A stretch of 37,896 nt of DNA, taken from assembly GCA_913042895.1 (NCBI GenBank), contig CAJWMQ010000010.1, positions 1 through 37,896 on the forward strand. Reading direction: 5' to 3'. Below the pieces are notes generated by a model. It saw nothing but the letters and a program-made list of their open reading frames with translations, had not been told where the DNA came from and ran no database searches. Below, one piece after another: positions 27,357 to 37,104 of this stretch; the first letter of the stretch is position 1; every line of letters starts with the position of its first letter. The position numbers and the translations under genes are program-made. The stretch comes from an uncultured Verrucomicrobiales bacterium (GTDB taxonomy: Bacteria; Verrucomicrobiota; Verrucomicrobiia; Limisphaerales; UBA1100).

Positions 27357-27442
27357 GGAATTTTAATTATTTTAGGAAATTAGGACAGTCACTAAAATCA
27401 TGAGCTTGACGTTTTAGCGTGAGAGCGCACCATAACAACACA

Positions 27443-28078
27443 GTGGTGAGACAGACATTTATTCTCATTGTAGCGGGAGCGTTTACTACGAATGCCCAAA
27501 CGTTGGTGGGCTCTTTAGGCGCGATGGGTATCGCCGGAACGCTCCAGTCGATTAATAGCACGGCTGTGATCAACGGTTTAAACGCGGCCAATGGGTTAAC
27601 TGGGATTAATGCCCAGCAGAATACAGCGGTGAATCAAGCTCTCAATGGCACCCCTCCTCAAAGGCCGGCAGCCACATCTCCTGTGATGCCTGCGACCGGC
27701 GGCGGTGCAGGCGGTGCAGCGGTGCCTCCGCAAGTTCAGCCGGTTAATCCAACTCCGTTACCGGTGAGTCTTCCTGCGCCGGGAAATCATCATCCCATGT
27801 TGGCGGGAAACATTCGTGTGTTAACCGTACCGGTTCAGGGGGATTTTTCCAATGGCCGGCGGCGGGGAGGGATCTTGCGGATGGTGGGAGGTTTTGGTGG
27901 GTTCCGGCTTTCACCGCGTTTTGGCCGTTCGGTGCCGGCGCCACGTGCGGTTGTAAACTCGCCAATAAGTACAGCCAGTGTGCGTACTCAAAGTTCGAGT
28001 GTTTCAATCAGCTCGTTGAGGGTGAATCCTAGCCGAACCTATCGGCGGAATGTTCGGATGGGATTGCGGTTGCAGTGA
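27443..28078 (+). CDS. Uncharacterised exported Asn/Pro/Ser-rich protein
   Basis: I do not recognise a family. A hydrophobic segment (RQTFILIVAGAFTTNAQT) is a plausible signal peptide. The middle (about residues 45-110) is low complexity, rich in Asn, Ala, Gly, Thr and Pro, and the end (from about 115) is basic with GRRRGG and several Ser runs; it has no Cys. The frame opens with GTG at 27419 and again at 27443 and 27446. I chose 27443 because TTGACG (27406-27411), 19 bases, CATAAC and six bases precede it. The arrangement is uncertain. The gene could be a surface or matrix protein, but nothing proves it. Confidence 0.55.
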   Translation: MVRQTFILIVAGAFTTNAQTLVGSLGAMGIAGTLQSINSTAVINGLNAANGLTGINAQQNTAVNQALNGTPPQRPAATSPVMPATGGGAGGAAVPPQVQPVNPTPLPVSLPAPGNHHPMLAGNIRVLTVPVQGDFSNGRRRGGILRMVGGFGGFRLSPRFGRSVPAPRAVVNSPISTASVRTQSSSVSISSLRVNPSRTYRRNVRMGLRLQ

Positions 28079-28108: not shown

Positions 28109-29557
28109 TTACCAAGGCAGGAAAAACCGATTGGCCTTCAGGGTTTGCCAGAAGGAATCGTGTTCGAGTTTTGAATAGATCAACTCGAGAATAATCAGAC
28201 TGCTACAAAGAATTCCAAATAAGGCGTAGCCGCGTTTGCGGGTGTCGGCCACGCGCCACCAGCCTGTGACGGGTTGAGGAAGGTTTTCCTCCAGGAATTG
28301 TCGCGTATGTTGGAGTGGTTCGCTGAGGATGGATTCCATTTCCTCAATTTCCTCCGGGGCAGGCATTGGAGGTGGCGGTGGGGGAGCTTCGCCGGGGTGC
28401 AGGAGATCAGCTAAATCCTTGGCGGATGCCGGGCGTTCTTCAGGGGTTTTGGCGAGGCATAGCATTATGGCATGTTCCGCGTGCGGCGGTAGGTGGTTTT
28501 CCAGATTGTAATCAGCCATGCGCTGGGAAATGGTGGGAGGCGGCACGTCCTGAACGAGCTGGAAAATATCGCCGGTGTAGAAGGGCGGCCGCGTTGTGAT
28601 GAGATCGTATAGGGTGGCTCCGAGTGCGTAAATATCATCAGCCGGTTCCGGGCGCAGACCGCGCATTTGCTGGGGGCTCATGTACACGGTGGTGCCGCTG
28701 GCGTCGCCTTCCATTTCGGCTTTGGGATTGCTGTCTGAGACACTGGCGGCAATGCCGAAATCCGCGAGCTTCAGGTTACCTTCGCGGGTTATCATCATGT
28801 TAGCGGGTTTTAAGTCGCGATGGATGATTTTTTGTTCGTGCGCGTACTGAAGGGCTTCGCACATTTGAATAGCGAGACCTTCTAGCCGGCTCCACGTGAA
28901 ACAACCGTTGGACTGCTGGTTTCTCAATGAACCAAGATCAGTACCATTAACATGCTCCATGGTAATGAAGGGAAGCTCGTCTGGAAGTTTAACAAAATCG
29001 TGAATGCGGATGATGTTTGGATGGCTGAGCAGTCTGGCCTTCTGTACTTCACCAATAAGATCACCGAGGGCGACGGTGTCATTGGCAAGCTCGGGAGGAA
29101 GGCGCTTGATAGCAACGGCCTGTTGCAGGTGCTCGTCTTGGGCTAGCCAGACCACGCCGCCACCGCCCCGGCCTAATTCCTGTTTGAGCGTGTAGCGGCC
29201 ATTGCCAATCACATCGCCAGGGACATAGAGACGGGCGGCATGGTCGATGGTTGTTGGGTTGGTGATAGTGAGATACAGATCGCCAATCTGCACAGCTTGA
29301 TTAAAAGGTAGGCTAGTGGGCTCTGTGAGGCTGGTCCCATTGAGAAAAGTGCCATGGGTGCTTTGGTTATCTTGGATCCAACACTGATCCTGCCCCAAGG
29401 TTAGGGTGGCATGTTGGCGTGAGAGATATTCGCTGTCACAGGACAGCGCATTTCCGGGATCTCGGCCAATGCCGTAAGTGCCGTGGTCAAGATTATGATC
29501 AGCGAGGACTTCGCCGTTTTGCCGCTGAATAATGACTCTTGTCGTGCCGGTACTCAT
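28109..29557 (-). CDS. Membrane-anchored Ser/Thr protein kinase with N-terminal FHA domain
   Basis: A 482-residue protein. Residues about 5-100 are an FHA domain (GIGRDPGN, SRQHATL, NQSTHGTFLNG), which binds phosphothreonine. The kinase domain (about 120-390) has the glycine loop GRGGGGVVWLAQ, VAIK lysine, IHRDLKPANM, LADFG and DIYALGATLYDL. A Pro-rich linker (PPPPPPMPAPEE) leads to one transmembrane helix (YALFGILCSSLIILELIY) about 25 residues from the C-terminus, so the kinase faces the cytoplasm. An in-frame TTG at 29584 was rejected. It is divergent from a gene for two FHA domains and a GAF domain, which suggests that the pair works together. Confidence 0.9.
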   Translation of the reverse strand: MSTGTTRVIIQRQNGEVLADHNLDHGTYGIGRDPGNALSCDSEYLSRQHATLTLGQDQCWIQDNQSTHGTFLNGTSLTEPTSLPFNQAVQIGDLYLTITNPTTIDHAARLYVPGDVIGNGRYTLKQELGRGGGGVVWLAQDEHLQQAVAIKRLPPELANDTVALGDLIGEVQKARLLSHPNIIRIHDFVKLPDELPFITMEHVNGTDLGSLRNQQSNGCFTWSRLEGLAIQMCEALQYAHEQKIIHRDLKPANMMITREGNLKLADFGIAASVSDSNPKAEMEGDASGTTVYMSPQQMRGLRPEPADDIYALGATLYDLITTRPPFYTGDIFQLVQDVPPPTISQRMADYNLENHLPPHAEHAIMLCLAKTPEERPASAKDLADLLHPGEAPPPPPPMPAPEEIEEMESILSEPLQHTRQFLEENLPQPVTGWWRVADTRKRGYALFGILCSSLIILELIYSKLEHDSFWQTLKANRFFLPW

Positions 29558-29620
29558 TGCCGAGGTAGGGAAGATGCCGGACAAGGGCGGGCGGGCTCAA
29601 GCTTCGTTTGTCGATGAAGA

Positions 29621-29650
29621 TTGACGGAAGGCCCTACCTCTCGCCAAGCT
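29621..29650 (+). promoter_or_regulatory. Possible promoter of the twin-FHA/GAF gene
   Basis: TTGACG (29621-29626), 18 bases and CAAGCT (29645-29650) lie eight bases before the ATG at 29659. The -35 box is good, the -10 box poor. Confidence 0.3.
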
Positions 29651-29658
29651 GAAGACTA

Positions 29659-31128
29659 ATGATCGAGGTGGAGATCAAACAAGGTGGCGAGGCGCGCACT
29701 GTGATGCTGGAGCATGACGAGATCATAATTGGTCGCCGCAACGAAATCCGCGAGGTGCAGTTGGATCTGACGCCGGATGAATCGGTGTCGCGAGTGCATG
29801 CGCGGGCCTGGCTGGCTGGAGACAAGGTGTTTCTGGAAGACTTGGGCAGTAGCGGAGGATCGCATGTAAATGGCGAACGGTTAGTGGCGGCCATGGAAAT
29901 TTTGCCCGATGCGGAAGTGATGTTGGGGGGTACGAAACTCACGTTGCGCAAGCCGCTTTCGGCGCATCGAAGAAGTGGGGCGCCACAGAGTAAACCGAAT
30001 CTGAGCCGACTTCAACCAAGGGGGCGTCCAGATCGGACTACAGGTTCTGATCCCTCTGAACCCAAAGCAGATGCCGTAAATGATGGCCGGCCGGTAAAGG
30101 GGATTCATATTGATTTGACGACCGATGCAGGACAGGAGGAACTGGTGTATGATCTCGATGAAATCTTTATCGGGCGAAAACATCCCGAACAGGAAATTCA
30201 TGTGGACCTGAGTTCGGATCTCAAGGTTTCACGAACCCATGCCCGAATCTGGCGGACCCGTGGTATTTGTTGGGTGGAAGATTTAAGCAGCACTCATGGC
30301 ACTTTGGTGAATGGCGAGGCGCTGTCCGGTGCGCGTGTAGTGAAGCCCGAGGATGAAGTGTGCATAGGCGGAGCAATGATGCGGTTCCGTTATGACAATG
30401 GGCACATGGCGATGCCGAAACGGAAATCGGAAACACCAACCGTGCCGGCAACCCAAGAGGAGGATGATTGTGCGTTCGAGGCGCTGGATTCCTATCCGGT
30501 ATACAAAGAGGAAAGTTATCGGTATTTTGAACCGGGCCAGCGGAAAAAATCAGATCTGGATGCTGTTCTGAAAAGCCGCAAGAGTCCCATGGGCCGCATT
30601 CGGCCTAACGGTCAATTGGCTTTGTCTGAGGCGGGTCAGGCCGGTTCCGGTTCCAAGGAGTTTCTGAAACTCTTGCCTGAATTGGTGGGGCAAATACACC
30701 GGGCCAAGAATAATAAAGCGCTGGCCGAATGGTTTGTGAACGGGGTCTCCAATTGGTTGACTACGGCGAAGCGGGCCGCTTTTTTTGTGGTAGATCATGA
30801 GTCGTGCCGCATTCGATTGCAGGCGCATCGCCCAGCGTTGAAACCTATTTTAAGTGACACACTCGCGCATCGAGCCCTTGCGATTCGCACGGGCTATTCC
30901 TGGCAACAGGTGGGTAAGGAAGAATGTGTGCGGCGCCTTTCTATGAACGCGGGGCTTTATGTGCCGATGATTTGGGGAGGGGAAGAGCTGGGCCTTTTAT
31001 GCGTTGAAGATACTGACGAGGGGGCGGAATTTTCAGAAAAAGATTTGGCGGCCCTAATGGTGGTGGGCCAGTTGTTGAGTTTGGCTGTGCGCCATCATTT
31101 GGCGGCCGAAGCTGTTGCCGCCGACTAA
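29659..31128 (+). CDS. Twin FHA domain protein with C-terminal GAF domain
   Basis: A 489-residue soluble protein. FHA domain 1 is about residues 1-100 (IIIGRRNEIREVQLDL, VSRVHARAW, DLGSSGGSHVNG) and FHA domain 2 about 145-255 (IFIGRKHPEQEIHVDL, VSRTHARIWRT, DLSSTHGTLVNG). Both keep the Arg/Ser/Asn phosphopeptide residues, although the first has GSSGGSHVNG in place of the usual STHG/STNG. A linker (about 260-335) is rich in Lys, Arg and Pro. A GAF domain (about 340-480) has AAFFVVDHESCRIRLQAH and LYVPMIWGGEELGLLCVED. No output domain is seen. It may collect phosphorylated partners of the adjacent kinase and sense a small ligand; this is inference. Confidence 0.85.
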   Translation: MIEVEIKQGGEARTVMLEHDEIIIGRRNEIREVQLDLTPDESVSRVHARAWLAGDKVFLEDLGSSGGSHVNGERLVAAMEILPDAEVMLGGTKLTLRKPLSAHRRSGAPQSKPNLSRLQPRGRPDRTTGSDPSEPKADAVNDGRPVKGIHIDLTTDAGQEELVYDLDEIFIGRKHPEQEIHVDLSSDLKVSRTHARIWRTRGICWVEDLSSTHGTLVNGEALSGARVVKPEDEVCIGGAMMRFRYDNGHMAMPKRKSETPTVPATQEEDDCAFEALDSYPVYKEESYRYFEPGQRKKSDLDAVLKSRKSPMGRIRPNGQLALSEAGQAGSGSKEFLKLLPELVGQIHRAKNNKALAEWFVNGVSNWLTTAKRAAFFVVDHESCRIRLQAHRPALKPILSDTLAHRALAIRTGYSWQQVGKEECVRRLSMNAGLYVPMIWGGEELGLLCVEDTDEGAEFSEKDLAALMVVGQLLSLAVRHHLAAEAVAAD

Positions 31129-32249
31129 CTGCCGGGCGTGGTTGGCACTGGTGTTGGCGTCAGGGATGAGGAGCTGTCATCCGGATCCACTGTCGGAGGG
31201 GCCAAGATCGCCGGGGGCGGGATACGCTGATAGGTGAAATTTTCAATCATGGGTGGGAAGAAATTCGTCCGATTGTAGAGATCATAAATTGGCGTGCCGT
31301 TCTTCAGAAGGATTTCTAGGTAGTCGGAATAATTATCCGGGTCCATGTGGTTTTTTCCGGTGAGAATTAGGCTGGCTTTGTACTTATCGAAAAGCTGACG
31401 GCGCTTGTAATAACGGCGACGTTCCAGGTTGGTCATGAAACCACGGGCCATGCGTTGGCCTGTTTCGATTTGTTCCCGGTTGAGGAAGCGGGCGAGGTAA
31501 TCACGATATTCTGATGCTAATGGCCGGGGTAGTTCGTTCGGGGCTGTTTGGATCATAAGACCTTGCGCTGAGGCCAGAATGAAATATTTGAAGGCGTTTA
31601 CCAAATCTTTGCGTGTACCCATTCCATTTTGGTAGGCAATGGCCACGTTGAATTGTGATTCGGGCAGACCTTCGTCTGCTGCTTTCTTGTACCATTCAAA
31701 TGCCTTTTGGTGGTCAAGGGGAACTCCCAGTCCCAACCCGTATAGCACGGCAAGGTTGTGTTGTTGGCGCATCATGCCGCTTTCGGCTTCTTCACGGATA
31801 ACGCGTGCGCCTTGAAGGTAAACCCGCATAGCTTCCTGAATGGCTTCGGGAGTAACGATTTCTTGGATTTGCACTGGAGGCGCGTTGGTGGAAACGGGTG
31901 TTGTGCCCGGAGTGCCGGGAACCCCGCCGCCAGGAATTGGGATTCCTGTTCCGGGGTTGATAGCGGGGGCCCCTGGAATACCTCCACCGGGGATCATTCC
32001 TGGAACTCCACCGGGGATGGCGTTGGTAGGAGCTATACCGGGTACTCCGCCTGGAACCATTCCCGGTACGGCAGGAATTGTACCTACCCCGCCAGGGATC
32101 GCTCCGGGGACCATAGTGGGAGGCGTGTTGGTTGCCATGCCGGGCACCGCATTGGTGGCTCCGGGTATTCCCGGAATAGCCGGAATGCCCGCCCATGCCC
32201 CCTGCAGCAAAGAAAGGAATGCGGTGCTCCAAAATAGAGTGTTTTTCAT
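31125..32249 (-). CDS. Exported Pro-Gly-rich protein with Sel1-like repeats
   Basis: A 374-residue protein with a signal peptide (MKNTLFWSTAFLSLLQGAWA). Residues about 22-125 are a low-complexity run of PG-x motifs such as IPGIPGATNAVPGM and GVPGIAPTNAIPGG, an elastin- or collagen-like pattern. Residues about 130-235 hold helical Sel1-type repeats (QQHNLAVLYGLGLGVPLDHQKAFEWYKKAADEG, then QFNVAIAYQNGMGTRKD...). The C-terminus is basic and then Pro/Thr/Ser-rich. Upstream, TACAAT lies 20 bases and AAGGA about 10 bases before the ATG, so this gene has a normal leader. Its stop overlaps that of the convergent twin-FHA gene. The function is unknown; a partner of the signalling pair is possible. Confidence 0.7.
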   Translation of the reverse strand: MKNTLFWSTAFLSLLQGAWAGIPAIPGIPGATNAVPGMATNTPPTMVPGAIPGGVGTIPAVPGMVPGGVPGIAPTNAIPGGVPGMIPGGGIPGAPAINPGTGIPIPGGGVPGTPGTTPVSTNAPPVQIQEIVTPEAIQEAMRVYLQGARVIREEAESGMMRQQHNLAVLYGLGLGVPLDHQKAFEWYKKAADEGLPESQFNVAIAYQNGMGTRKDLVNAFKYFILASAQGLMIQTAPNELPRPLASEYRDYLARFLNREQIETGQRMARGFMTNLERRRYYKRRQLFDKYKASLILTGKNHMDPDNYSDYLEILLKNGTPIYDLYNRTNFFPPMIENFTYQRIPPPAILAPPTVDPDDSSSSLTPTPVPTTPGS

Positions 32250-33640: not shown

Positions 33641-35035
33641 TTAACCGACGGCGCGCAGGATGACGTCATGCACATCGGTGCTCTTCAGGGCGTCGCCTGA
33701 GGGGAGTGCATCGGTAGCCGATAGCAGCACGGGCCAATCGGCGCGATCGGCGGGGCGGCAACCATGGGAGCCTTTGACCAAAGTGGCGTCCAGCGGGATC
33801 ACGTCCATGAGCATGCGGAAGCCGAGTTTCTTTTGTAGTAACCGGCGGACAATGTGCAGCTTTGGGAAAGTGATTTCCGGATTGATAAACAACTCTACCG
33901 GATCGTAGCCAGGTTTGCGATGGATATCGACCGTGCGCGCGAAGTCCGGGGCCTTGGCATCGTCCTGCCAGTAGTAGTAGGTGAACCAACTATCCTCGGC
34001 GGAAACAGCAATCAGATCTCCGGCGCGTTCATGGGCAATGCCACATTCGGTTTTGGCCTCGTCGTCCAAGACTGAATCCACTCCATCAATCGAGCCAACG
34101 AGTGCTTTAACCTCGTTGAGGATTGCCGGATCGTTGACGTACAGGTGGGCCACTTGATGGTCCGCCACAGCGAACACTTTGCTCGCGCCTGCATCCAGTA
34201 GTTCCAAGCCGAGTTCCTCTTTAATCGTTAGCCATCCCTGTTCGCGGAAATGGCGGTTCAGATGAATCGCCCGGTTCGTTTCCGTGATACCGTATTCCGA
34301 AAGGATGATCGGTTGAACCTCGCGTGCTTCGTAAAACTCCACCAAATCACGCACGATCTCATCGATCATGTTGAGATCGGTGCCGATAGCCGGATCATTC
34401 GGGCCAAGCCGTTGGAGATTGTAATCCAAGTGCGGCAGATAAATGGTGGTGAGCGTCGGAGATTGGCGTTGCTCCACCCATTTGGCGGACTCAGCGATCC
34501 AGCAACTCACGCAATCGGCCGAGCCCTGCGGCGTGGTGACGCCGGCGGCTGGTCCCCAGAATCCGGGGAAGGGAAACTTGCCCAAGTCCCGTTTGATCTC
34601 CGTACGGATAGATGCGGGGTGCGTGTAGATATCAAACACCTTGCGGCCATCGGCTGGGTACATCGGGCGTGGCGTGAGGCTCCAGTCAGCGCTTGAGTAC
34701 ATGTTGTACCACCAAAAGACTTTGGAAAACGTGAAGTCCGTGTGGCGCTCGCGCAGGGTGTCCCAAACCTTCGGGCCCTGCACCAGTTGATTGGGTTGTT
34801 TCCAAAATTGGACTTCGGCTAAATCCCGGTTGTACCAGCCATTGCCCACGATGCCGTGCTCGCTGGCGGTTTTGCCGGTGACATAATTCGACTGCGCAGT
34901 ACAGGTCACCGCCGGGAAGGCGGGGTCGATGTGGCGATGTTGGGTGCGCTCGCGGAAGGCGGAAAGGAACGGCATGTCCGGCCCGATGTGTCGGTCGCAC
35001 AACCCCACGACATTGATCACGACCACGCGGTTCAT
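33641..35035 (-). CDS. eboF: EboF-like alkaline phosphatase-superfamily protein
   Basis: A 464-residue protein of the nucleotide pyrophosphatase/phosphodiesterase type. It starts MNRVVVINVVGLCDRHIGPDMPFL, followed by FPAVTCTAQSNYVTGKTASEHGIVGNGWY, where the Thr is the expected nucleophile, and later PHLDYNLQRLGPNDP, LSEYGITE and ADHQVAHLYV with metal ligands. This sequence organisation is that of the EboF family of the ebo cluster, which in cyanobacteria and others is needed to move a metabolite out of the cytoplasm. The substrate here is unknown. There is no signal peptide. The gene begins six bases after the eboD stop, so the two form an operon. Confidence 0.85.
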   Translation of the reverse strand: MNRVVVINVVGLCDRHIGPDMPFLSAFRERTQHRHIDPAFPAVTCTAQSNYVTGKTASEHGIVGNGWYNRDLAEVQFWKQPNQLVQGPKVWDTLRERHTDFTFSKVFWWYNMYSSADWSLTPRPMYPADGRKVFDIYTHPASIRTEIKRDLGKFPFPGFWGPAAGVTTPQGSADCVSCWIAESAKWVEQRQSPTLTTIYLPHLDYNLQRLGPNDPAIGTDLNMIDEIVRDLVEFYEAREVQPIILSEYGITETNRAIHLNRHFREQGWLTIKEELGLELLDAGASKVFAVADHQVAHLYVNDPAILNEVKALVGSIDGVDSVLDDEAKTECGIAHERAGDLIAVSAEDSWFTYYYWQDDAKAPDFARTVDIHRKPGYDPVELFINPEITFPKLHIVRRLLQKKLGFRMLMDVIPLDATLVKGSHGCRPADRADWPVLLSATDALPSGDALKSTDVHDVILRAVG

Positions 35036-35041
35036 GCGCGG

Positions 35042-36241
35042 CTATCCCCGAGCGGGAATGATCTTGGAATCCTCGCGTCCCTCAGCGCGTTCCTGAAGTT
35101 CATGGATGGCATCCAGCATCTTGGGCAGATTCATTTCATTAACCTCAAACCCGTCGCCAATGCTGTGCAGAAGCGTGATGGTGAGGCGGCCACCAAGATG
35201 TTCACGGAACTCCTCAAGCCCTTCGATGACCACCAGTTTGCCATCGGCATCGGCATGCAACAAATCCGTGCTCCAGAGGGTGAAACCGAGGCGCTCCAGC
35301 AGGCGGAGGATGCGATCGCATTGTTCGGCAGACAGGAATTCCATGTCGCGCGCGTAAATGCAATCCAGCGCAATCCCGATGGCAACGGCTTCCCCGTGGC
35401 GCAAGCGGTACTCGGAAATTTGTTCCAGTTTATGCGCCGCCCAATGGCCGAAATCCAGCGGTCGCGCACTGCCCATTTCAAACGGGTCGCCGTTGGAAGC
35501 AATGTGGTTCATGTGCAGCTCTGCACTGCGATAAATCAGCCGCTGCATGGCCGCCGGTTCGAATTGCGCCAAGGCATCGGCGTCGGCCTCGATGAGATCG
35601 AAAAATTCGGCGTCGCGAATGCAAGCCACCTTCACGGCCTCCACGTAGCCATTGCGCTTGTCGCGGGCGGACAGGGTGGAAAGCAACTGGAAATCATTGA
35701 TCACCGCAAACGGCGGCGCAAAGGTGCCGATGAAATTCTTTTTGCCAAAGGCATTGATCCCGTTTTTCACGCCCACGCCCGAGTCATCTTGGCTGAGTGT
35801 TGTGGTTGGGATGCGAATGTGGCGAATACCGCGATGGGCCGTGGCGGCGGCCAAGCCTACCATGTCCAGCAACGCGCCGCCACCCACGCAAATGAGGTAG
35901 GAGTGGCGGTCGATGTGGTAGCGATCCACCTGCGATTGCACTTCGCTGACGTGGAAGTAGGAATTCTTGGTTCGCTCTCCGCCCTCCATGACCACCGGTT
36001 CACAAACTAGATTCAGGCAGTCCGAATGCGTTTTGAAATACGCCTGAATTTGCGAGAGCAGAGTGGGTTGCGCCTTGGCCAGCGCTTCGTCCACCACGAT
36101 CAGCGTCTTGCGCGGTTCGCGCTTCTCGCCGTCCACCAGCGCATCGCGCAACGTGGCATTCTCAGTATCAAACACATTCTGCGTGAACAACACCTGATGG
36201 CGCCAATTCACCGTAATGGCACGCTCAATCCGGGACGACAT
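35042..36241 (-). CDS. eboD: EboD-like 3-dehydroquinate synthase-family protein
   Basis: A 399-residue protein of the dehydroquinate synthase fold. The NAD-binding part shows CVGGGALLDMVGLAAATAHRG and RIPTTTLSQDDSGVGVKNGINAFGKKNFIGTF; metal-ligand motifs are NGYVEAVKVACIRD (Glu), WAAHKLEQI (His) and RLRHGEAVAIGIALDCIYA (His). It differs from AroB in spacing and matches the ebo-cluster protein EboD. Its partner eboF follows directly. A frame open to 36580 was rejected: that extension crosses a divergent gene and its promoter; the ATG at 36239-36241 has a clean promoter. The reaction of EboD is not known. Confidence 0.85.
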   Translation of the reverse strand: MSSRIERAITVNWRHQVLFTQNVFDTENATLRDALVDGEKREPRKTLIVVDEALAKAQPTLLSQIQAYFKTHSDCLNLVCEPVVMEGGERTKNSYFHVSEVQSQVDRYHIDRHSYLICVGGGALLDMVGLAAATAHRGIRHIRIPTTTLSQDDSGVGVKNGINAFGKKNFIGTFAPPFAVINDFQLLSTLSARDKRNGYVEAVKVACIRDAEFFDLIEADADALAQFEPAAMQRLIYRSAELHMNHIASNGDPFEMGSARPLDFGHWAAHKLEQISEYRLRHGEAVAIGIALDCIYARDMEFLSAEQCDRILRLLERLGFTLWSTDLLHADADGKLVVIEGLEEFREHLGGRLTITLLHSIGDGFEVNEMNLPKMLDAIHELQERAEGREDSKIIPARG

Positions 36242-36248
36242 GCGCGGC

Positions 36249-36277
36249 AGCGTAACGCAGGGTTGAGATAATGACAA
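36249..36277 (-). promoter_or_regulatory. Predicted promoter of eboD-eboF
   Basis: On the minus strand TTGTCA (36277-36272), 17 bases, TACGCT (36254-36249) and seven bases precede the ATG at 36241. This is a good sigma70-like pair with an optimal spacer and essentially no leader. Confidence 0.5.
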
Positions 36278-36298
36278 GGCGGGCCATACCGTGCAGGC

Positions 36299-36327
36299 TT
36301 GTTTTCGGGATCGTTTTTCGTTAGTGT
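36299..36327 (+). promoter_or_regulatory. Predicted promoter of the lipoprotein gene
   Basis: TTGTTT (36299-36304), 17 bases and TAGTGT (36322-36327) end six bases before the ATG at 36334. It is divergent from the eboD promoter. Confidence 0.4.
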
Positions 36328-36333
36328 CCACAC

Positions 36334-37104
36334 ATGGATCGTGGCTGGAAGGCGGCGGTGTGGATATTGGTGGGCATGGTGGGCTGGGTGGCTTGTCAAG
36401 GCCCCGGTGGGCTGGGCGGCGGGGTAGATCCCGATCGGCCTGTGACCGAGGTGGAAAAGGCGCTGAATGCGTGGCGCGATGTGAACGCCACCAAGACGGC
36501 CAATGAAAAAGAGCTGATCGATATCCGTAACCAGCTCCTCTCCATGCCGGCTGATTCGCCGCCCACCCGCGAGCTGACAAGGCGTTTGGCGATCCTGAAC
36601 AAGAAGGCGCAGGAGTTGGCGTTCGAGGAATTTCGCGCTTCTCGGGTTTATGAAACGGCCGTGGAGGAGGAGGCAGAAGCCCAGCGACAGGCGGCGTTGG
36701 ACGCCAACGCCACGGCCAATGCCAAGACTGATTCCAGCGCTAGGCCGATTCATGAGGTGGCCGGGATTCAGTTGTTTCCGTTTTCCATTGCCACAGACAC
36801 AAACAATGGAATTCGCGCGCTGAGCGGTACGGTGACCAACGCCCGAACTGATGCGATTGACGAACTCACACTGGTATTTGATGTGTTCGATTCGGGCGAT
36901 CAAATGCTGGGCACCACAAGTGACTTCATTGCCACACTTCCCGGCGGCTCCAACTGGAACTTCAAGGCCATACTGCTGGACACGAATATCGTGCGTGCGG
37001 TCTTCAAGGAATTTAGAGGCGCAAATGGAACCATCCAAACAAACGGGCCCTCGGCATTGCCGCCGCTTCCAGGAGGAACGCCGACACCTTCGCCCGCTCC
37101 CTAG
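36334..37104 (+). CDS. Probable lipoprotein with coiled-coil and FxLYD-like domain
   Basis: A 256-residue protein. The first 20 residues are hydrophobic and end in GWVAC at Cys21, a near-standard lipobox (Trp at -3 is unusual). Residues about 35-130 are predicted helical, rich in charged residues and Ala (TANEKELIDIRNQLL, AEAQRQAALDANATANAK). Residues about 150-235 resemble an FxLYD-type beta-sandwich (GIQLFPFSIATDTNNGIRALSGTVTNARTDAIDELTLVFDVFD). The tail is Pro/Gly-rich. It may be anchored to a membrane on the periplasmic side; its function is unknown. No other gene runs in its direction until the window end. Confidence 0.65.
   Translation: MDRGWKAAVWILVGMVGWVACQGPGGLGGGVDPDRPVTEVEKALNAWRDVNATKTANEKELIDIRNQLLSMPADSPPTRELTRRLAILNKKAQELAFEEFRASRVYETAVEEEAEAQRQAALDANATANAKTDSSARPIHEVAGIQLFPFSIATDTNNGIRALSGTVTNARTDAIDELTLVFDVFDSGDQMLGTTSDFIATLPGGSNWNFKAILLDTNIVRAVFKEFRGANGTIQTNGPSALPPLPGGTPTPSPAP

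Follow-up and report, generated by a model that had tools for sequence, protein, structure and literature searches.

The window analysed here, a stretch of 37,896 nucleotides from an uncultured Verrucomicrobiales bacterium (the entire contig C10 of the assembly G000; 2.96 Mb, 224 contigs, 82% complete), carries a divergent pair of genes encoding a membrane-anchored Ser/Thr kinase with its own FHA domain and a protein with two FHA domains and a GAF domain. The two genes stayed side by side in related genomes, which suggests that they form one signalling unit. We propose, with a confidence a little above even, that the two proteins together make up a split receptor kinase, in which the twin-FHA-GAF protein is an adaptor acting as a soluble, phospho-dependent sensor. 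This is the likeliest reading of genomic and sequence data that combine a kinase devoid of an external sensor with a partner endowed with a GAF domain and phosphothreonine readers.

The kinase gene (28109..29557, minus strand) was delineated from its open reading frame, Pfam matches, orthologue alignment and a membrane helix model. The open reading frame (28109-29584, minus strand) extends to a TTG codon at 29584, but the starts of the orthologues match the internal ATG at 29557. The kinase is therefore probably 482 amino acids long, and its ATG faces the ATG of the partner gene (29659) across 101 bp (29558..29658), a gap that would be reduced to 74 bp with the TTG start. The protein comprises an FHA domain (29282..29473; 56.3 bits in an FHA search; Pfam FHA 52.7 bits, cut-off 20.7) and a Hanks-type kinase domain (28424..29194; Pfam Pkinase 159.6 bits, cut-off 31.7), which keeps the HRD and DFG motifs of Hanks-type Ser/Thr kinases, invariant in the 11 kinase orthologues aligned. 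Its closest solved structures are the Mycobacterium kinases PknA (Z 31.9) and PknB (Z 30.2). A single transmembrane helix is predicted at residues 439-466 of the 482-residue form (28160..28243, minus strand), consistent with a hydropathy peak at 425-443 in 11/11 orthologues. Only 16 residues follow the helix, leaving no periplasmic sensor domain, and the match to the PASTA kinase model NF033483 (Stk1/PknB equivalog) involves the kinase part only and falls short of its cut-off (223.1 bits against 450), so the protein is not classed as a PASTA kinase. With almost nothing outside the membrane, the input of the kinase must come from the cytoplasm.

The partner gene (29659..31128, plus strand; open reading frame, Pfam, alignment and structure) encodes 489 amino acids arranged as FHA1 (29722..29916), FHA2 (30166..30369), a conserved interdomain segment (YPVYKE...KSRKSPMGRIR; 30481..30600, delimited by alignment) and a GAF domain (30757..31092; Pfam, alignment and structure). 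The Pfam matches comprise two stretches of FHA (together 87.3 bits) and a GAF domain (GAF_3 27.8 bits, cut-off 27; GAF 25.1, cut-off 22.4; GAF_2 25.0, below its cut-off of 28.6), the only further match being to the FHA-like family Yop-YscD_cpl, the best stretch of which (13-98) overlaps FHA1. The GAF assignment is corroborated by a fold match to the GAF domain of PtsP (3trc; Z 15.5, rmsd 2.7, 148 residues). No membrane helix was seen in the protein, which is probably soluble. The first-pass annotation, which had described a membrane-anchored FHA-kinase lying about 100 bases from a divergent neighbour with two FHA domains and a GAF domain, was thus accurate as to the position of both genes and the architecture of both proteins.

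Binding of phosphothreonine by FHA domains relies on the Arg and Ser of the GR and SRxH motifs and on an S-x-N/H-G-T loop. In the alignment of 12 orthologues of the twin-FHA-GAF protein (that of G005, the N-terminus of which is lost in a run of N, was left out but is included in the locus counts), FHA2 retains the GR, S-R-x-H and S-x-H-G-T motifs in all 12, with R173, S191, H194, S211, H213 and T215 invariant. FHA2 therefore has the residues of a predicted phosphothreonine-binding domain. The interdomain segment, which has no recognisable counterpart in the aligned homologues with a cyclase (see below), is a candidate docking element.

The following lines of evidence support the proposed unit. 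First, among the 20 genomes of the window's family that were searched (G000 counted; G and L label genomes and loci, respectively), 13 possess the twin-FHA-GAF gene, and in 12 of these the orthologous kinase gene is divergent from it. In the thirteenth, G003, the contig holds a single base upstream of the twin-FHA-GAF gene, and a kinase C-terminus of 62 amino acids (95% identical) is found on another contig. The start-to-start gap ranges from 85 to 138 bp in the 10 pairs measured, the window pair included. No sigma-70-like promoter site was found in the shared 101 bp of the window; a TTGAC-like block of this upstream region aligns among orthologues, and we assign no meaning to it. The family is rare outside the order at a threshold of E 1e-60, as only 5 of the 288 genomes of a phylum-wide sample (G000 among them) match it at this value or better. 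Ten of the 11 named records matching the twin-FHA-GAF alignment are labelled as Verrucomicrobiota or one of its subgroups (Pedosphaera being counted as such), and the other one as Planctomycetaceae.

Second, the head-to-head layout recurs in paralogous kinase/FHA pairs; with the 12 of 13 family genomes, this runs counter to the lack of a conserved neighbourhood in relatives that the first-pass annotation had named as refuting its idea. We took 77 kinase hits of at least 200 bits from 58 genomes, irrespective of their neighbours (these are not independent, many being orthologues). A non-kinase FHA gene lies within 800 bp (counting from the start of the domain to the stop codon) of 34 of them, in divergent orientation in 32 cases and convergent in two. 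A narrower measure, in which distances ended at the limits of the kinase hit, so that neighbours downstream of long kinases were penalised, gave 32 FHA neighbours, all divergent. The 34 partners are 16 FHA-only, 12 FHA-FHA-GAF, four FHA-GAF-cyclase (one with a small gene in between) and two FHA-GAF proteins; for a further eight kinases the FHA gene is farther than 800 bp. The 2.96 Mb of G000 contain only three FHA genes that do not encode kinases, so chance adjacency of a kinase and an FHA gene should be well under 1%. In a tree of 55 kinases, the loci of which were partly picked for having an FHA neighbour, a clade of 48 (support 99/99) holds all kinases labelled as lying beside FHA-only or FHA-GAF genes and nine of the ten labelled beside FHA-GAF-cyclase genes, the exception being a different kinase, encoded on the opposite flank of the same cyclase gene. 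Related kinases with an adjacent FHA gene thus nearly always face it head-to-head. To our knowledge, many bacterial Ser/Thr kinases have no known partner, and this rule yields candidate readers for numerous kinases in a group that has mostly been seen through metagenome assemblies.

Third, the FHA-GAF module is shared with cyclases. Of the 293 genomes of the order searched with a profile of the FHA-GAF family, 147 matched at 1e-30, in most cases only through the cyclase part, and the loci typed include FHA-GAF-class III cyclases from 21 genomes, none of the window's family. Their GAF and nearer FHA domains are homologous to those of the window protein, which ends right after the last GAF helix, where the cyclase-bearing homologues run on into the cyclase. 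PF00211 (Guanylate_cyc) was confirmed in three of the latter (L080, L082 and L083) and has no match in the window protein. Judging from these alignments, the window protein is a cyclase-less relative of the FHA-GAF-cyclases, an architecture without its usual output. The first-pass statement that it has no output domain was therefore literally right, but it missed the class III cyclase that distant homologues carry after the GAF domain. A kinase gene lies no more than 700 bp from the genes of 26 of the 55 tabulated FHA-GAF or cyclase proteins (divergent in 22 cases, convergent in two and on the same strand in two). Outside the window's family, where loci were picked from profile matches covering GAF with FHA or cyclase and are not a random sample, this holds for 12 of 39, in seven families.

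In a tree of GAF domains, from which two FHA-FHA-cyclase proteins were left out, the cyclase-less proteins of the window's family fall to the same side of a branch with support 96/90. Three other families have FHA-GAF proteins without a cyclase as well, and the cyclase changed between presence and absence at least four times, three of these changes being forced by supported branches. Since the tree is rooted by midpoint only, it does not decide between loss and gain of the cyclase in the window's family. Two twin-FHA proteins with a class III cyclase (L102:7753-9693 and L182:8384-10348) were considered as intermediates, but they are not clean ones, no GAF domain being detected in them by profile.

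We propose the following mechanism. The kinase would be held at the membrane by its one C-terminal helix and take its input from the cytoplasm, in the form of the twin-FHA-GAF protein, the GAF domain of which would supply the sensor that the kinase lacks. The FHA domains, FHA2 above all, would bind phosphothreonine that the kinase has made on itself or on its partner. Binding of a ligand to the GAF domain would change the way in which the adaptor holds and sets the kinase. As the adaptor of this lineage has no cyclase, the output would be that of the kinase and not a cyclic nucleotide.

Several observations weigh against this proposal. The first concerns the kinase itself, which has Glu at both activation-loop Thr positions of PknB (the alignment is ungapped there; we take these positions to be T171 and T173). 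Nine of the 11 kinase orthologues read lack Ser/Thr at either position, and nine of 11 have Glu at the second, whereas among 35 other related kinases 20 have Ser/Thr at one or other position and 15 at neither (nine of the 55 kinases, including one orthologue cut by a contig end, had no readable loop and were left out). Classic activation-loop autophosphorylation is thus unlikely in the window kinase. The earlier idea of a phospho-signalling pair keeps its conserved pairing but loses its canonical phosphosite, so the FHA ligand would have to be another phosphosite, more probably one in a juxtamembrane or linker position than in the activation loop. The best conserved Thr near the membrane, T418 (Thr in 8/11 orthologues), is only a candidate. 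On the side of the partner, FHA1 keeps R26 and S44 and may nonetheless not bind phosphothreonine, since the usual loop Asn position is occupied by G, A, Q, L or T in 12/12 aligned orthologues, and conservation of the interdomain segment is poor in genus g2. Pairing is not universal either. The twin-FHA-GAF gene is missing from 7 of the 20 family genomes (56-92% complete; 92% in G017). No FHA neighbour was found in the stretch read for 35 of the 77 related kinases, some of them near contig ends, and these 35 include a group of orthologous FHA-kinases about 530 amino acids long. Outside the family, 27 of the 39 proteins of FHA-GAF or GAF-cyclase type lack a kinase gene at a distance of up to 700 bp (3 of the 27 with less than 50 bases of contig upstream), so the kinase link is not obligatory.

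A broader proposal, which we regard as less likely than not, is that the order carries a convertible relay from phosphothreonine to cyclic nucleotide, re-wired in the window's family so that the GAF ligand steers the kinase itself. The relay unit would pair a divergent FHA-kinase with a GAF sensor that reads phosphorylation and continues into a class III cyclase. In family f8 (G026 and G083), a small gene for a cyclic nucleotide (cNMP)-binding protein (PF00027; L080:6503-6904, plus strand; L154:7383-7862, minus strand) lies between the FHA-GAF-cyclase and FHA-kinase genes. In the window's family, the cyclase and the receptor would be gone, the reader would have a second FHA domain, and acid residues would replace the loop phosphosites of the kinase. 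If true, phosphothreonine and cyclic-nucleotide signalling would be linked in one conserved gene unit. The cyclase-bearing relatives offer a measurable output, the cyclic nucleotide, by which to judge whether a kinase controls its neighbour. Genes similar to the f8 receptor genes were also seen several kb away in L225 (9709-10128) and L175 (8050-8508).

Partnerships between kinases and FHA proteins are already known (PknB-GarA, PknG-OdhI and PpkA-Fha), of which the association of a twin-FHA-GAF protein with a kinase having its own FHA domain appears to be a new variation. Searches of the literature for FHA, GAF and adenylate cyclase together gave no paper, and the titles and abstract openings of related articles mention no kinase/twin-FHA-GAF pairing. 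Like the PknB-GarA and PknG-OdhI systems, the window pair combines a Hanks-type kinase with an FHA partner, the FHA2 domain of which aligns with OdhI and GarA. Unlike GarA and OdhI, which are single-FHA proteins, the window protein has twin FHA domains and a GAF domain (it scores 42.9 bits against the OdhI equivalog, cut-off 200, and is not a GarA/OdhI protein), and the window kinase has its own FHA domain and no PASTA or other external domain. The FHA-GAF-class III cyclases of the same order share homologous FHA and GAF domains with the window protein, and several lie beside kinases of the same clade, but they end in an adenylate/guanylate cyclase domain and those typed as containing GAF have one FHA. 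A precedent is DgcB of Bdellovibrio, an FHA-GGDEF protein in which an FHA domain gates a nucleotide cyclase through phosphothreonine (PMC6733907). In both cases FHA is coupled to second-messenger signalling, and the FHA domain of DgcB is among the best fold matches of the window protein (6hc0; Z 14.8 over 95 residues). DgcB differs in combining one FHA domain and GGDEF in a single chain, instead of two FHA domains and GAF without a cyclase, and its kinase is not identified in PMC6733907, whereas the kinase gene of the window is adjacent.

Alternatively, the twin-FHA-GAF protein might be mainly a substrate of the kinase, its FHA domain closing on a phosphothreonine of its own linker and the released form acting on a third protein. 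FHA2 aligns with the FHA domains of OdhI, GarA and DgcB, all of which bind their own tails, a binding that PMC6733907 links to phosphorylation in DgcB and GarA/OdhI. The low-confidence linkers of the window protein (101-146 and 247-269) contain Thr residues, and the interdomain positions S306 and S309 are Ser/Thr in 11/12 and 10/12 orthologues. However, none of the Thr residues in these linkers reaches 80% conservation among the orthologues and no third partner is evident, and we consider this alternative unlikely.

Somewhat less likely still, the twin-FHA-GAF protein could dock on a separate, stand-alone class III cyclase and regulate it in trans, the kinase phosphorylating either of them. 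G000 does encode two class III cyclases and two cNMP-binding proteins, and the divergent f8 unit described above joins an FHA-GAF-cyclase, a cNMP-binding protein and an FHA-kinase in two genomes. Against this, neither cyclase is on the window contig, neither cyclase contig is among the FHA hits, and a profile of the L080 cNMP-binding gene found no such receptor gene in the 13 orthologous pair loci.

It is improbable that the two genes are merely co-regulated, i.e., that they share a promoter region, within a regulon including the neighbouring EboD-, EboF- and Sel1-like genes, with no action on each other. The neighbourhood is indeed constant, with the Sel1-repeat gene lying tail-to-tail with the twin-FHA-GAF gene in 13/13 loci and followed, in the loci with enough contig, by genes for a type I phosphodiesterase (EboF-like; 11/11) and a DHQ-synthase-like protein (EboD-like; 10/10). 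Yet the divergent kinase-FHA layout recurs in paralogous and distant pairs, and no paired locus among those typed (L080-L107) adjoins the Sel1-EboF-EboD run.

An anti-phage defence kinase of the PD-T4-6 type with an accessory protein is very improbable. The kinase does score 222.5 bits against one PADLOC PD-T4-6 model (no curated cut-off shown), through the kinase domain only, but 34 PADLOC families match it (via the kinase domain in the 25 shown), the FHA-GAF and Sel1 proteins have no PADLOC match, and the position and surroundings of the locus are constant throughout the family, which would not be expected of a defence island. A type VI secretion regulator of the PpkA-Fha/TagH kind, which also joins a Ser/Thr kinase and an FHA protein, can be rejected with near certainty, as the weak VI_FHA match (24.8 bits) is far below the cut-off of the TagH model TIGR03354 (120.25) and the VipB sheath gene was unmatched in 20/20 genomes (G000 and 19 relatives, several incomplete).

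The Sel1-repeat gene (31125..32249, minus strand; Pfam Sel1 68.1 bits) overlaps the end of the twin-FHA-GAF gene by 4 bp and encodes a protein with a hydrophobic N-terminus; its N-terminal part is rich in Pro and Gly, a bias that had been noted. Its suggested membership in the kinase/FHA-GAF set is uncertain: it is a constant neighbour, but it lies on the opposite strand, in a run leading from the EboD/EboF-like genes. A PQQ-repeat gene stands between the Sel1 and phosphodiesterase genes in 5/11 loci. At positions 33641-36580 of the window, the phosphodiesterase gene (PF01663) adjoins the DHQ-synthase-like gene (PF01761; 567.8 bits to NF004852/PRK06203), and the PQQ and Sel1 genes have the same orientation. 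EboF and EboD, encoded by the ebo cluster, belong to PF01663 and PF01761, respectively (PMC5133447); no match to an EboC-like protein (UbiA, PF01040) was found among the window proteins scanned with Pfam. On the other side of the kinase gene, no gene common to all loci was seen. In the window it is tail-to-tail with an open reading frame of 219 amino acids (27419-28078, plus strand), which has no Pfam or NCBIfam match and no match in the 20 loci compared.

Other divergent kinase and FHA genes were observed. A second family of pairs (L091-L094, L099-L101, L106 and L107) comprises an FHA-only protein of 98-137 amino acids and a kinase of about 350 amino acids; the nine kinases, which have no Ser/Thr at the PknB loop positions, group in a clade of their own (100/98). 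In L095-L097, an FHA protein of about 250 amino acids and a kinase of about 935 amino acids are encoded divergently about 2.7-2.8 kb apart; of two intervening open reading frames examined in L095, one encodes a protein with a GYF_2 domain and the other a protein without Pfam match. The possibility of a PP2C partner for the window kinase was dropped, as PP2C_2 was not found in the nine genomes of genus g1 (G000-G008), each of which has several kinases (other phosphatase families were not searched). PP2C_2 was found in 9 of the 20 genomes searched, three of them in the window's family, where it is present in 3 of the 4 genomes searched outside genus g1.

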